From: Cellulomonas phragmiteti
GTDB taxonomy: Bacteria; Actinomycetota; Actinomycetes; Actinomycetales; Cellulomonadaceae
Direction: 5' to 3'
Assembly: GCF_016862775.1 (NCBI RefSeq)
Contig: NZ_BONP01000008.1
Span: 1 to 64,000, forward strand
DNA: 64,000 nt
The notes beneath the pieces are model-generated. The model was not told where the DNA came from. It searched no databases and saw only the letters and a program-made list of their open reading frames with translations. Position numbers and translations under genes: made by a program. Below, in pieces: positions 12,975 through 16,324 of this stretch; within the stretch, counting starts at the first letter, position 1, and the number at the start of each line of letters is the position of its first letter.

Positions 12975-13029
12975 GACCGCCGGCACCGGTCTCCCCACTG
13001 GTCACGCCTGAGGCGCTCGAGCGTGGTCA

Positions 13030-13048
13030 CACCGCCCGTGCGGCGGTG
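13030..13048. terminator. Hairpin between convergent holA and EAL gene
   Basis: Perfect 7-bp stem CACCGCC/GGCGGTG with loop CGTGC, about 87 bases beyond the end of the EAL gene on the minus strand. Symmetry lets it act on either strand. The rest of 12898-13134 shows no reading frame or other element. Confidence 0.4.
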
Positions 13049-13134
13049 GGCAGGAGGTCATGACGTCCTCGTCCGGGGCGTCACCCGAGCGGCCGCAGCC
13101 GGAACGGTGACGTCGTGACCGCGGCCTGAGCCGG

Positions 13135-13863
13135 TCAGTGGCCGACGAGCCGGGCGCCCGCGCGGTCCAGCACTCCGGCGCGCTCGATGAGGTTCCCCTG
13201 GAAGAGGGTGAAGCCGAGGTCGCGGGCGTGGCGCAGGACCTCCGGGGACTCGACGTACTCGGCGACGAGGGTCGCGCCGAACGACCGTGCGACGCGGACG
13301 ACGGGGTGGCCCTCCACGTCGAGGTCACGCACGTCGACCTTGACGAAGTCGACGTGCGGCAGCAGCCGGCGCTGCTCCGGGCGGTCGGTGAACGAGGGGA
13401 GCGCGACACGGAACCCCTGCTCACGCAGGCGGCGCAACCCGGCGAGCGCGGCAGCGTCGACCTCGGTGGTCGTGCTGACCTCGATGACGAGGCGGTCGGG
13501 CCGTGCGGGCAGGGGCAGCTCGCCCAGGAGGTGGGCGCGGGGGCACCGGACGAAGAGCAGGCGTCCGTGCGCCACGTCGTCGAGGTCGACGCGGCCGAAC
13601 GTCGCCCGCAGGACGTGGTCGGTGGCGCGCTCGTGGTCGGCGCGTCCCCACGTCCGCGCGAGCTGCGGGTGGTGCCCGGGCGCCCGGTAGGAGAACTGGT
13701 AGGCGAACGGCCGCCCGTGCGCGGAGTAGATGCCCTGGCGTGCGACGAGCACGGGCTCGTGCGCGAGGTGCTGCTCCCACGCCCGCCGCAGCGCCCGCGG
13801 GATCGCCGCGTCGACCGCCGCGCCGAGCAGCGCGACCGTCGCCTCCGGGTCGTCCGATGTCAT
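13135..13863 (-). CDS. Degenerate EAL-domain protein (c-di-GMP phosphodiesterase-like, probably non-catalytic)
   Basis: A 242-residue protein read leftwards from the ATG at 13863. It aligns by eye with single EAL domains of the YuxH kind: ARQGIYSAHGRPFAYQFSYR occupies the place of the motif that gives the domain its name, FVKVDV the metal-site strand, and AEYVESPEVLRHARDLGFTLFQGN the C-terminal conserved block. The first glutamate (E of EAL/ELL) is replaced by Gln (YQFSYR), and the loop-6 DDFG motif reads PSFTDRP, so metal-dependent hydrolysis is unlikely; binding of c-di-GMP or a protein-interaction role is more plausible. No sensor or GGDEF domain is attached. A 26-bp palindrome lies immediately upstream. 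Confidence 0.75.
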   Translation of the reverse strand: MTSDDPEATVALLGAAVDAAIPRALRRAWEQHLAHEPVLVARQGIYSAHGRPFAYQFSYRAPGHHPQLARTWGRADHERATDHVLRATFGRVDLDDVAHGRLLFVRCPRAHLLGELPLPARPDRLVIEVSTTTEVDAAALAGLRRLREQGFRVALPSFTDRPEQRRLLPHVDFVKVDVRDLDVEGHPVVRVARSFGATLVAEYVESPEVLRHARDLGFTLFQGNLIERAGVLDRAGARLVGH

Positions 13864-13873
13864 GGCGACTATG

Positions 13874-13899
13874 ACATCACAAGTCCGGACATGTGATGT
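13874..13899. promoter_or_regulatory. 26-bp near-perfect palindrome, candidate operator
   Basis: Arms ACATCACA and TGTGATGT flank a perfect palindromic core GTCCGGAC; only the two bases bordering the core (A and A) break the symmetry, so 24 of 26 positions are symmetric. It lies 11-36 bases upstream of the minus-strand EAL start, exactly where its promoter should be, and upstream of the plus-strand peptide gene. The AT-richer arms stand out in this genome. A dimeric regulator is the obvious ligand; which one is unknown. Confidence 0.6.
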
Positions 13900-13979
13900 T
13901 CTGGTCGCAGGGTGGAATCTCGACGCACCCGATCGGGTGGTCGGGGTGTTCGCACGGATCCGGTGGAATGTGTCACCCT

Positions 13980-14025
13980 GTCGGCGACGTGTCCCGACCT
14001 GGCGGGGCCGTCGGCGACATGCCCC
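13980..14025 (+). repeat. Phased 16-bp direct repeats upstream of the secreted-peptide gene
   Basis: GTCGGCGACGTGTCCC (13980-13995) and GTCGGCGACATGCCCC (14010-14025) match at 14 of 16 positions and start exactly 30 bp apart, about three helical turns. They end 33 bp before the peptide start codon. This is the geometry of two adjacent activator or repressor sites on one DNA face. Confidence 0.5.
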
Positions 14026-14058
14026 CAGGGAGCACGGAGTCTCTGACAGGAGAACGAC

Positions 14059-14187
14059 ATGAAGGCCCTCACCAGCGCAATCGCCGCTCTCACCATCGTT
14101 GGATCGCTCGTCGTCGGTGCCCCGGCAGTGACTGCCTCCGTCTCGCTCAACGGCGGGGCCAGCGGCTGCTGCAAGGACTTCCACTGA
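14059..14187 (+). CDS. Small secreted peptide precursor (candidate signalling peptide)
   Basis: A 42-codon gene with a good ribosome site (ACAGGAGAACGAC, then ATG). The product has a textbook Sec signal peptide: Lys2, a hydrophobic core (about residues 8-20), and an A-x-A-like site in PAVTA/SVS. Predicted mature part: SVSLNGGASGCCKDFH, 16 residues with a vicinal Cys pair. It matches no family I recognise. It stands upstream of an XRE-TPR regulator on the same strand, with a strong hairpin between them. RRNPP-type quorum systems use exactly this pairing, so a pheromone is the leading idea; a small bacteriocin, redox or metal-binding peptide, or a toxin is possible. The coding call rests on the signal peptide, ribosome site and a clean stop. 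Confidence 0.75.
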   Translation: MKALTSAIAALTIVGSLVVGAPAVTASVSLNGGASGCCKDFH

Positions 14188-14255
14188 GCTGATCGACCCG
14201 AGGGGTGCGGTGTCGCGACAGCTGTCGTCGCGCACCGCGCCCGTCCGTGCGGGCA

Positions 14256-14300
14256 CGCGCCGGGGCCTCCGACCCTGCCCAGGGTGGGAGCCCCGGCGCG
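14256..14300 (+). terminator. Strong hairpin after the peptide gene
   Basis: A perfect 10-bp outer stem CGCGCCGGGG/CCCCGGCGCG continues inward through CTCC/GGAG and ACCCT/AGGGT with small bulges. It sits 69 bases after the peptide stop and ends 40 bases before the TACAAT box of the next gene. No T-tract follows, as is usual for high-GC terminators. It would separate the abundant short peptide mRNA from the regulator transcript. Confidence 0.7.
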
Positions 14301-14339
14301 CCGTGCGCGACGGGGGATGGCAATCACGGACGTCATACG

Positions 14340-14345
14340 TACAAT
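14340..14345 (+). promoter_or_regulatory. -10 box (TACAAT) of the XRE-TPR regulator
   Basis: TACAAT is close to the TATAAT consensus and ends 8 nt before the ATG at 14354, so the regulator mRNA is probably leaderless. A weak TGGCAA at 14318-14323 could serve as -35. Confidence 0.6.
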
Positions 14346-14353
14346 GACTTCTC

Positions 14354-15682
14354 ATGACGACTATCGGTGACCGTGTGCGCGAGTCGCGGTTGGCCGCTGG
14401 GCTCTCCCAGACGGCCCTGGCGGGGAACGCGTTCTCGCCCAGCTACATCTCCCTCATCGAGGCCGGGCACCGTGAGCCCACGGACGCCGCGCTCGGTGTG
14501 CTCGCCGAGCGGCTCGGCACGACCCTGGAGTTCCTCAAGCACGGCGAGGACGGTCCCAACGAGGCCCGGACGCGGCTCGAGCTCGACTACGCGCGCCTGG
14601 ACCTGGCCAGCGGCGACGCCGCCGGTGCCGTCCACCGGATCGGGGCCCTCGACCTGACGGTCGTCACCCCCGTGCTGCGCGTCGAGGCGCTGTCGACCCT
14701 CGCGCGCGCCCACGAGCTCCTCGGTGAGCTCGAGACGGCGATCACGCTGCTCGAGCCGCTGCTCGCCGAGACCCAGCAGCGCCCCGACCACCTGCGGGCG
14801 GCCGTGCTCACCACGGCACTCGTCGGGTGCTACCTCGAGGCCGGGGACCTGCACCGGGCGGTGGAGGTCGGGGAGCGCACGCTCGCCGACCTGGACAGCG
14901 CCGACCTGGTCGGGACCGACGAGCACCTGCGCCTGGCGTCGACCGTCCTCTGGGCGTACGTCGAGCGCGGCGACCTGCTGTACGCGACGCACCGCGCCGC
15001 CGAGCTGGTCCGTCTGGCCGAGTCGCTCGGCACGCCGCGGGGCCGCGGCAGCGTGTACTGGAACGCCGCGCTCGTGGCCGAGCAGCGGCGGGACTACGAG
15101 CTCGCCCAGCGCTACACGGAGCGTGCCCTCGCGCTCCTCTCGGAGGGCGAGCCCGACCGGGACCTGCCGCGTCTGCGGGTCAACTACGCGTGGCTGCTGC
15201 TGCGCTCCGAGCCGGCCGACCCGCACGCTGCGCTCGAGCAGATCGACCGGGCGGAGCCCGGCCTGAACGCCGTCGGGTCCGCCCTCGACGTCGCGCGGCT
15301 GCAGGTCGAGCGGTCGCGCGCGCACCTCATGCTCGGTGACGAGGCGGCGGCGGAGAGCGACGCGCGCGCCGCGCTGGCCGGGCTGGGGGACTCCCCGCGC
15401 CTGGAGGCCGCGACCGCGCACATCGCGCTGGGTGACGTGCTCGACGCGCGCGGCGACCACGAGGGCGCGTCCACCGCGTTCCAGTGGGGCGCCGACATGC
15501 TCGGCATGATGGCGGCCACCCGGCACTCGGCCGGCGTCTGGCGCGACCTCGGGGACCGGTACCTGCGGCGCGGGGACGTCGACGCGGCGGCCCGCGCCTT
15601 CGACCGTGCCCTGCGCGAGGCCGGTTTCCAGCCCTCCGTGCCGACGGGTGCGCCGCGGGAGACGTGGTCCCTGGGCGGCTGA
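14354..15682 (+). CDS. XRE-family regulator with tetratricopeptide repeats (RRNPP-like)
   Basis: A 442-residue protein. Residues 1-62 form an XRE/Cro helix-turn-helix (GDRVRESRLAAGLSQTALA, SPSYISLIEAGHREPT). From about residue 75 to 430 it is all-helical with repeated two-helix units such as VEALSTLARAHELLGELETA, YLEAGDLHRAVEVGERTLAD and IALGDVLDARGDHEGASTAF, typical of tetratricopeptide repeats. This architecture defines peptide-responsive regulators (PlcR, PrgX, Rap/Rgg group) in Firmicutes, where the repeat superhelix binds a secreted and re-imported peptide. Similar XRE-TPR proteins are common in actinobacteria and mostly uncharacterised. The secreted-peptide gene ends 166 bases upstream. 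The gene ends at a strong bidirectional terminator facing rpsT. Confidence 0.88.
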   Translation: MTTIGDRVRESRLAAGLSQTALAGNAFSPSYISLIEAGHREPTDAALGVLAERLGTTLEFLKHGEDGPNEARTRLELDYARLDLASGDAAGAVHRIGALDLTVVTPVLRVEALSTLARAHELLGELETAITLLEPLLAETQQRPDHLRAAVLTTALVGCYLEAGDLHRAVEVGERTLADLDSADLVGTDEHLRLASTVLWAYVERGDLLYATHRAAELVRLAESLGTPRGRGSVYWNAALVAEQRRDYELAQRYTERALALLSEGEPDRDLPRLRVNYAWLLLRSEPADPHAALEQIDRAEPGLNAVGSALDVARLQVERSRAHLMLGDEAAAESDARAALAGLGDSPRLEAATAHIALGDVLDARGDHEGASTAFQWGADMLGMMAATRHSAGVWRDLGDRYLRRGDVDAAARAFDRALREAGFQPSVPTGAPRETWSLGG

Positions 15683-15731
15683 TCTGGTGGGCGGCTGAGT
15701 GGGTGGGCGGCTCAGCCGGCCGCACAGCGCG

Positions 15732-15763
15732 AAGGGCGGCACCCCCGAGGGGGTGCCGCCCTT
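15732..15763. terminator. Bidirectional terminator between the XRE-TPR gene and rpsT
   Basis: Perfect 14-bp stem AAGGGCGGCACCCC/GGGGTGCCGCCCTT with a 4-base loop, followed on the plus strand by GCGTCGTT. The A/T ends give short T-runs in both directions. It serves two convergent genes. Confidence 0.9.
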
Positions 15764-15823
15764 GCGTCGTTCGTCGCGGGACGTCGTCCCGACGCGCGCG
15801 GGTGGAAGCCGCGCGCGGTCGCC

Positions 15824-16084
15824 TCAGAGGCTGTTGACGGCCTTCGACAGCGCCGACTTGCGGTTGGCGGCCTGGTTGGCGTGGATCACGCCCTTGGACA
15901 CCGCCTTGTCGAGCTTGCGGGCCGCGACGACGAGCGCGGTGCTCGCTGCGTCCTTGTCGCCACCGGCGACGGCCTCGCGGACGCGCCGGACGTACGTCTT
16001 GAGCTCGGACTTCACTGCCTTGTTGCGCAGCCGAGCCTTCTCGTTCGTACCGATGCGCTTGATCTGGGACTTGATGTTCGCCAC
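15824..16084 (-). CDS. rpsT: 30S ribosomal protein S20
   Basis: An 86-residue, strongly basic protein starting at [23 protein letters not shown], then [20 protein letters not shown] near the C-terminus, the S20 signature. S20 binds the 5' and 3'-minor domains of 16S rRNA during early 30S assembly. It is encoded opposite to its neighbours, as usual in actinobacteria where rpsT faces holA and is divergent from lepA. It ends before a strong terminator. The upstream gap (16085-16336) holds its promoter; a TAGCAT hexamer on the minus strand (16226-16231) is a possible -10 about 140 bases before the start. Confidence 0.98.
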
Positions 16085-16324
16085 GTGTGGACTCTCTTGG
16101 GTAGGTCGCCGAAGCGATCTGACAGGTCGTAGAGGGCATGCGCAGCGCCAGGACTGGGGCGTGGGGACACCCGCGGGAAAGGCCTGCGCCCGCGCCCGCC
16201 GACCCGGGCGGGCACGCGGTTCAACATGCTACCAGCCGTGCAGGCGCGACGCGGCGCCCGCCTCGGCGTCCTGCGCCGTGACGGCGTCGTCGTGTCACGT
16301 AACGCGACGTTGACACGGGCCGAC

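Follow-up and report, generated by a model that had tools for sequence, protein, structure and literature searches.

Among the described peptide-receptor systems, those closest to the locus analysed here are NprR-NprX and PlcR-PapR, members of the RRNPP (RRNPPA) class of Bacillota, in which, as here, a regulator with an HTH domain and TPR repeats is encoded beside a small exported-type propeptide whose C-terminus is the would-be signal. The Rap-Phr pairs of the same phylum likewise join a superhelical TPR fold to a small adjoining exported-type propeptide; Rap proteins typically have no HTH domain, and the Phr genes typically lie downstream. A first-pass annotation of the window, by which we mean the whole analysed stretch of 64,000 nucleotides of Cellulomonas phragmiteti (contig NZ_BONP01000008.1, positions 1 to 64,000), had proposed an RRNPP-like pair there and had stated that such systems are barely described in actinobacteria. 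In the parts of the literature cited here, RRNPP_detector was applied to Firmicutes and to viruses (PMC10075063), the main text of PMC9765709 contains neither "actinobacteria" nor "actinomycet", both surveys are to this extent confined to Bacillota, and the corresponding parts of PMC10075063, PMC9765709, PMC13236596, PMC4748050 and PMC13220807 describe no such Actinomycetota pair. Nor was there an earlier description of the pair among the matches listed in a search of the open-licence literature, divergent or aromatic-Pro peptides lying outside its scope. The present pair differs from NprR-NprX and PlcR-PapR in that it belongs to Actinomycetota, often has a Cys-Cys tail, is weakly related to them in sequence, has its peptide gene upstream, downstream or divergent depending on the lineage, and is known from sequence and a structural model. 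It differs from Rap-Phr in that the regulator of the window has an HTH domain and the peptide gene is upstream.

The prepeptide gene of the window (14059-14187, forward strand) is real. It has its ATG at 14059 and its TGA at 14187, encodes MKALTSAIAALTIVGSLVVGAPAVTASVSLNGGASGCCKDFH, 42 residues and a stop, and is preceded by the Shine-Dalgarno sequence AGGAG (14048-14052, forward strand), which ends 6 nt before the start codon, thus the 43-codon gene with ribosome site and stop was correctly recognized. In an alignment of 43 loci TGAC-AGGAG is kept at the ribosome site of the prepeptide. The product can be written as MKALTSAIAALTIVGSLVVGAPAVTA-SVSLNGGASGCCKDFH, where the signal cleavage was placed by eye; the presumed mature 16-mer SVSLNGGASGCCKDFH (14137-14184, forward strand) includes the tandem Cys codons TGCTGC (14167-14172). 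A Pfam and NCBIfam look-up of the prepeptides gave no match above cut-off. An Rfam scan of window positions 13000-16200 gave no match, and TTCACCC-type elements upstream of the window peptide were not in excess (3 found, 3.0 expected). The proposed selection check on the 14059-14187 frame showed that the prepeptide is under purifying selection in the window clade, with dN/dS values of 0.11-0.49 in seven pairs and differences distributed 31/21/73 over the three codon positions in six pairs. Only these seven window-clade pairs were used for dN/dS, distant pairs being rejected with a pN/pS of about 1 and saturated synonymous sites.

The conservation of the pair was followed in a genus survey of 81 genomes, a close orthologue being defined as a regulator at least 60% identical to that of the window. 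Such a regulator occurs in 66 of the 81 genomes, a CC-tailed prepeptide lies within 500 bp upstream of it in all 66, and a peptide profile (E <= 1e-6) matched exactly the same 66 genomes. Neither regulator nor peptide was found at these thresholds in 13 genus genomes, one of which is 67% complete. Two others, represented by loci L105 and L106, carry a divergent regulator (47% and 52%), with no peptide by the filter on either strand and no repeat; they are natural candidates for signal loss, and L241 is on the same contig as L106. We kept 80 named loci, 67 of them at 53-95% regulator identity; these overlap the genus genomes and come from Cellulomonas, Actinotalea, Pengzhenrongella, one genome labelled Cellulosimicrobium and metagenome-assembled genomes. 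The peptide is upstream in all 67: each has a signal-peptide-like ORF with a CC tail within 600 bp, with an SD-like motif in 66, and the rest of the same loci, used as a control, yielded 4 such CC ORFs (none with SD) in 1.37 million strand-bases (71 ORFs altogether). It must be noted that a CC tail and a basic start were requirements of the ORF filter, and that no locus was lost thereby. When the search was extended to 70 of the 140 other genomes of the family, chosen by us, the regulator was found in 29, all from three further genera, and was accompanied by the peptide in 29 of 29.

The signal peptide originally proposed for the window recurs as an export-type N-terminus in all 68 compared prepeptides (window plus 67), with K or R in residues 2-6 in 68/68 and D or E in residues 2-18 in none. 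Each of the 68 contains exactly two Cys residues, adjacent and followed by 2-6 residues to the end; a G precedes the pair in 66 and K or R follows it in 65, and the Cys codons are TGCTGC in 65 and TGTTGC in 3. A small exported-type gene was thus found beside every close orthologue tested, and also beside most distant homologues (see below), when the suggested comparison of neighbourhoods was made. At two loci, L099 and L104, the CC peptide is flanked by two regulator genes, since another XRE-TPR paralogue is located upstream.

In close relatives the pair has a fixed position in the order holA - [EAL-like] - peptide - regulator - rpsT, the flanking genes having been identified as holA and the S20 gene (rpsT). 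The peptide had been described as directly upstream of the regulator; it is upstream, but the two are separated by a gap of 166 bp, 146 nt of which have a very stable predicted folding (z -5.6). The gap contains a strong GC-rich hairpin without a T tract (14256-14300, forward strand), the presumed transcript end, and a regulator promoter, ATGGCA-17-TACAAT (14317-14345, forward strand; 1 found, mean of the shuffles 0.0), which ends 8 nt before the regulator ATG, making the transcript leaderless or nearly so. Among 18 sampled relatives the gap folding is stable (z <= -2) in 12 and not in 6. Given the stable fold and the regulator's own promoter, peptide and regulator are probably separate transcription units and not one operon. 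The divergent EAL-like gene (13135-13863, reverse strand) is present in 54 of the 67 named loci and is mostly absent or moved in Actinotalea. Because its Pfam match is restricted to profile positions 113-235 of 236, which is the latter half of the EAL domain, the protein is probably non-catalytic, and probably serves as a binding or regulatory protein, not as an active phosphodiesterase.

Two window copies of an inverted repeat of the form GTCAT-N7-ATGAC are candidate operators: GTCATACGTACAATGAC (14332-14348) lies at the regulator promoter, over the -10, and GTCATGGCGACTATGAC (13859-13875) spans the position where the EAL-like gene has its start codon. A weaker copy, GTCACCCTGTCGGCGAC (13972-13988), is upstream of the peptide gene. 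The strict form has three sites genome-wide, of which two are at the window locus. Of the 67 named loci, 55 have the form GTCAY-N7-RTGAC at the regulator promoter, 37 have it no more than 140 bp upstream of the peptide and 52 have it farther upstream, at 140-320 bp; the nine other spacers (3 to 12) together gave 1 at the regulator, 2 at the peptide and 4 at the far upstream position. Other clades have a better peptide-side repeat, 38-59 bp upstream of the peptide (37/67). In 46 of the 52 loci with the far upstream repeat, a minus-strand ORF longer than 180 aa starts at an ATG inside it, and this far upstream copy was present in 20 of 20 genus genomes that we chose (reversed control, 0-3 per genome). 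Because a comparable repeat occurs in 8 of 22 paralogue loci, and none of the GTCAY-N7-RTGAC form was found in 26 divergent intergenic regions of the class, the putative operator is lineage-specific. The relaxed repeat is common in the genome of the window, with at least 33 sites versus 1 for the reversed control; we claim no regulon from it, because many of the sites look like coding repeats.

The regulator (14354-15682, forward strand), the presumed peptide receptor, is the 442-residue XRE and TPR protein that had been described, with HTH_31/HTH_3 and TPR matches. Its structural model (60 sequences, pLDDT 90.4) consists of an HTH followed by a TPR superhelix, the architecture of RRNPP/RRNPPA receptors, and, as with those receptors, a small exported-type propeptide gene lies beside the receptor gene. 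The best solved matches to the model are LGN-type TPR proteins (Z 25.6), and the most similar bacterial proteins are Rap with CSF (4gyo, Z 23.3) and NprR (Z 22.0), MalT being close behind (Z 21.5). Residues 63-425 of the model align with residues 64-418 of NprR, and a profile of 60 regulators matches PlcR over residues 4-183 with E 3.4e-7, HTH and TPR being common to many proteins. The predicted fold fits a peptide receptor and is no proof of one. The claim of an RRNPP-type system is supported in part by the linkage to an exported-type gene, the common repeats, the paralogous cassette described below and the NprR/Rap-like model, and is limited by the fact that proteins other than peptide receptors also have TPR folds of this kind. 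The NsdA family (NF053720), which also consists of TPR-like regulators, was considered and rejected: the regulator matches it weakly (E 0.0017), and its 18 of 75 bits are below the NCBIfam membership cut-off. The genome of the window contains five SBP_bac_5 proteins, a family also matched in 11 of 14 control genomes.

A second, paralogous cassette exists in this group. Paralogue regulators, 36-42% identical to that of the window, have related prepeptides downstream, mostly of the form MKK/MNK...PCCKxx, which were found in 20 of the first 20 paralogue loci and in 27 of 27 when all paralogues found are counted. One such regulator-peptide pair is in the genome of the window, on another contig. 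PCCK prepeptides also occur in tandem, with two each in six loci, four in two species and five in one; these arrays of four, four and five genes (L353, L354 and L355) lie 3' of the regulator and have differing tails. At L126 and other paralogue loci, many PCCK prepeptide genes have an inverted repeat of the GTGCCGGAC/GTCCGGCAC type ahead of their ribosome site. In some loci, such as L110 and L112, the end of another gene precedes the paralogue regulator; in L110 it weakly matches an Rce1-like CAAX protease (E 0.006, below cut-off), and a protein of this type might have a role in peptide processing. A lone PCCK prepeptide was seen in two genus genomes, G033 and G047, neither of which has a window-type regulator (L356, 683-802; L357, 3245-3364), with no homologous regulator within the stretch examined and next to a gene that we take to be HxlR-like. 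It is possible that these lone prepeptides are signals without a receptor.

The distant set comprised 55 loci, that is, 13 named loci, 40 loci taken from 37 of the 48 matching genomes elsewhere in the class, and L105 and L106. A CC-tailed exported-type ORF was found within 900 bp in 43 of the 55; most of these ORFs are encoded on the strand opposite to the regulator, and in many of them CC forms the very end of the peptide. Jiangella, Phytoactinopolyspora and Haloactinopolyspora are among the loci with such an ORF. A relaxed search of the 12 loci lacking a CC peptide gave no convincing CC peptide and a non-Cys candidate in four. We also applied a Cys-free filter to both strands (25-60 aa, SD, basic start, no acidic residue in positions 2-18, hydrophobic). 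By this filter 45 of 53 class loci, or 39 of 47 after the removal of six double-counted contigs, have an exported-type ORF next to the regulator, and 38 of the 45 ORFs are divergent from the regulator, 30-400 bp away; eight of the 53 loci, two of them cut by contig ends, had no such ORF. A few loci show a second candidate ORF, possibly by chance. When 396 genomes from across the phylum were searched, the regulator turned up in another 21, all belonging to other classes, at 22 loci, 19 of which have an exported-type ORF beside it (divergent in 16) and three of which have none by the filter. The same filter, applied to the rest of the class and other-class loci as control strand, returned 2 ORFs in 492,148 and 0 in 134,206 strand-bases, respectively (626 kb in total).

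The tails differ between lineages (CC, WCC, FPWPK, WPHH). Those of the other classes include FPWPK, YPWPK, NWPHH and WPHVP, with APWPHCC and APWPPCC as linking forms, and the whole prepeptides there have 28-35 residues, few of them past the hydrophobic part. Very short divergent exported-type ORFs with aromatic-Pro ends were seen at L360-L380 and L382, where the regulators share about 26-35% identity with the nearest relatives in the present set. The Cys pair emphasized by the first-pass annotation is therefore a property of many lineages, including all 68 close homologues, but not of every lineage. In one family, f23, the first 32 residues of the prepeptides are 38% identical and the last 10 are 14% identical (45 pairs), and CC is absent from 4 of 10 tails. 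Four of its members (L301, L313, L314 and L318) have similar signal parts and dissimilar Cys-free tails, and CC-tailed members occur in the same family. A conserved signal part with a variable tail, as it appears from these alignments, is the pattern that would be expected of diversifying signals. In the regulator tree the window's group and the paralogues are split from 26 homologues of other families with support 100/100, and because peptides occur on both sides, the association of peptide and regulator is probably older than this split.

We consider it likely, and the best reading of these data, that the locus belongs to an RRNPP-like peptide-receptor signalling system of Actinomycetota. 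We infer the following loop. A Sec-type signal peptide would direct export of the prepeptide, and trimming would leave a short peptide from its C-terminus, which would re-enter the cytoplasm, probably by an oligopeptide permease, and bind the TPR superhelix of the XRE regulator. The GTCAY-N7-RTGAC sites that the regulator would bind in the window's group are those at its own promoter, before the peptide gene and at the EAL-like gene, the last being a likely local target. Since the regulator-side repeat covers the -10, the regulator would most simply be a repressor whose binding to the repeat is altered by the peptide. Different lineages of Actinomycetota would use different tails, Cys-Cys, aromatic-Pro or variable. 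Peptide tail and TPR part co-diverge beyond holA (partial r 0.23, 0 of 500, 63 loci); this does not point to a specific contact, because the signal part behaves equally (0.24).

The same observations can be read in other ways. The peptide could be secreted as an effector, with antimicrobial activity or with a metal- or redox-related activity due to its Cys pair; the neighbouring regulator would then sense something else and simply control the peptide gene. The two adjacent Cys residues of all 68 close homologues would suit this role, tandem arrays suit an effector as well as a pheromone, and co-regulation through a common repeat is compatible with either order of events. We nevertheless regard an effector as unlikely, because the tails vary freely by lineage while the linkage to one regulator family persists; besides, the 28-35-residue prepeptides of the other classes would leave few residues after the hydrophobic part, and there is no maturation, immunity or transport gene between holA and rpsT in the window (in the relatives the comparison covered five window genes). 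Retention of the peptide at the membrane or envelope, where it would act without being a free signal, is less probable still: the shortest other-class prepeptides are indeed mostly hydrophobic, and the lipoprotein attachment model PF08139 weakly matched one of 35 prepeptides (E 0.002), but it matched none of the other 34 at E <= 0.1, and the Cys pair is located towards the C-terminus instead of following the signal peptide.

It could also be argued that the small ORF is a cysteine-sensing leader, in which ribosome stalling at the tandem Cys codons attenuates transcription into the regulator. Polycysteine leader ORFs exist in Actinobacteria, as stated in the part of PMC13236596 that cites Canestrari 2020, and the order of elements in the window, with adjacent TGC codons close to the stop followed by a strong hairpin and the regulator, is what such a leader would look like. 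The mycobacterial leaders resemble the present ORF in being short with adjacent Cys codons near the end, but they are, according to the same part of PMC13236596, leaderless attenuators, whereas the ORF here is SD-led (SD-like motif in 66 of 67), has a signal peptide and is often divergent from the regulator. The export-type N-terminus of all 68 prepeptides, the position of the regulator's own promoter and repeat beyond the hairpin, and the location of the paralogue peptides downstream of their regulators speak against attenuation too. In most distant homologues the ORF and the regulator gene are divergently transcribed, and many of the tails lack a Cys pair; on these grounds the explanation falls, and we give it hardly any credence.

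If the locus is indeed a peptide-receptor signalling system, it may be one representative of a phylum-wide family of pheromones and TPR receptors, parallel to RRNPP of Bacillota, with private tail codes (Cys-Cys, aromatic-Pro, hypervariable) and including redox gating and species with two loops; for this wider proposal we see the chances as evenly balanced. In the Cys-Cys lineages a disulfide, dimer or metal-bound state may gate recognition, and gating by the Cys pair would, if true, tie the sensing of cell density to the redox state. Some species would then run two receptor loops, with arrays of up to five pheromone genes. A peptide-receptor pair whose adjacency is kept across classes of Actinomycetota would open direct peptide signalling in this phylum to test, and in the small locus described here the candidate signal, receptor, operator and local target can each be named.
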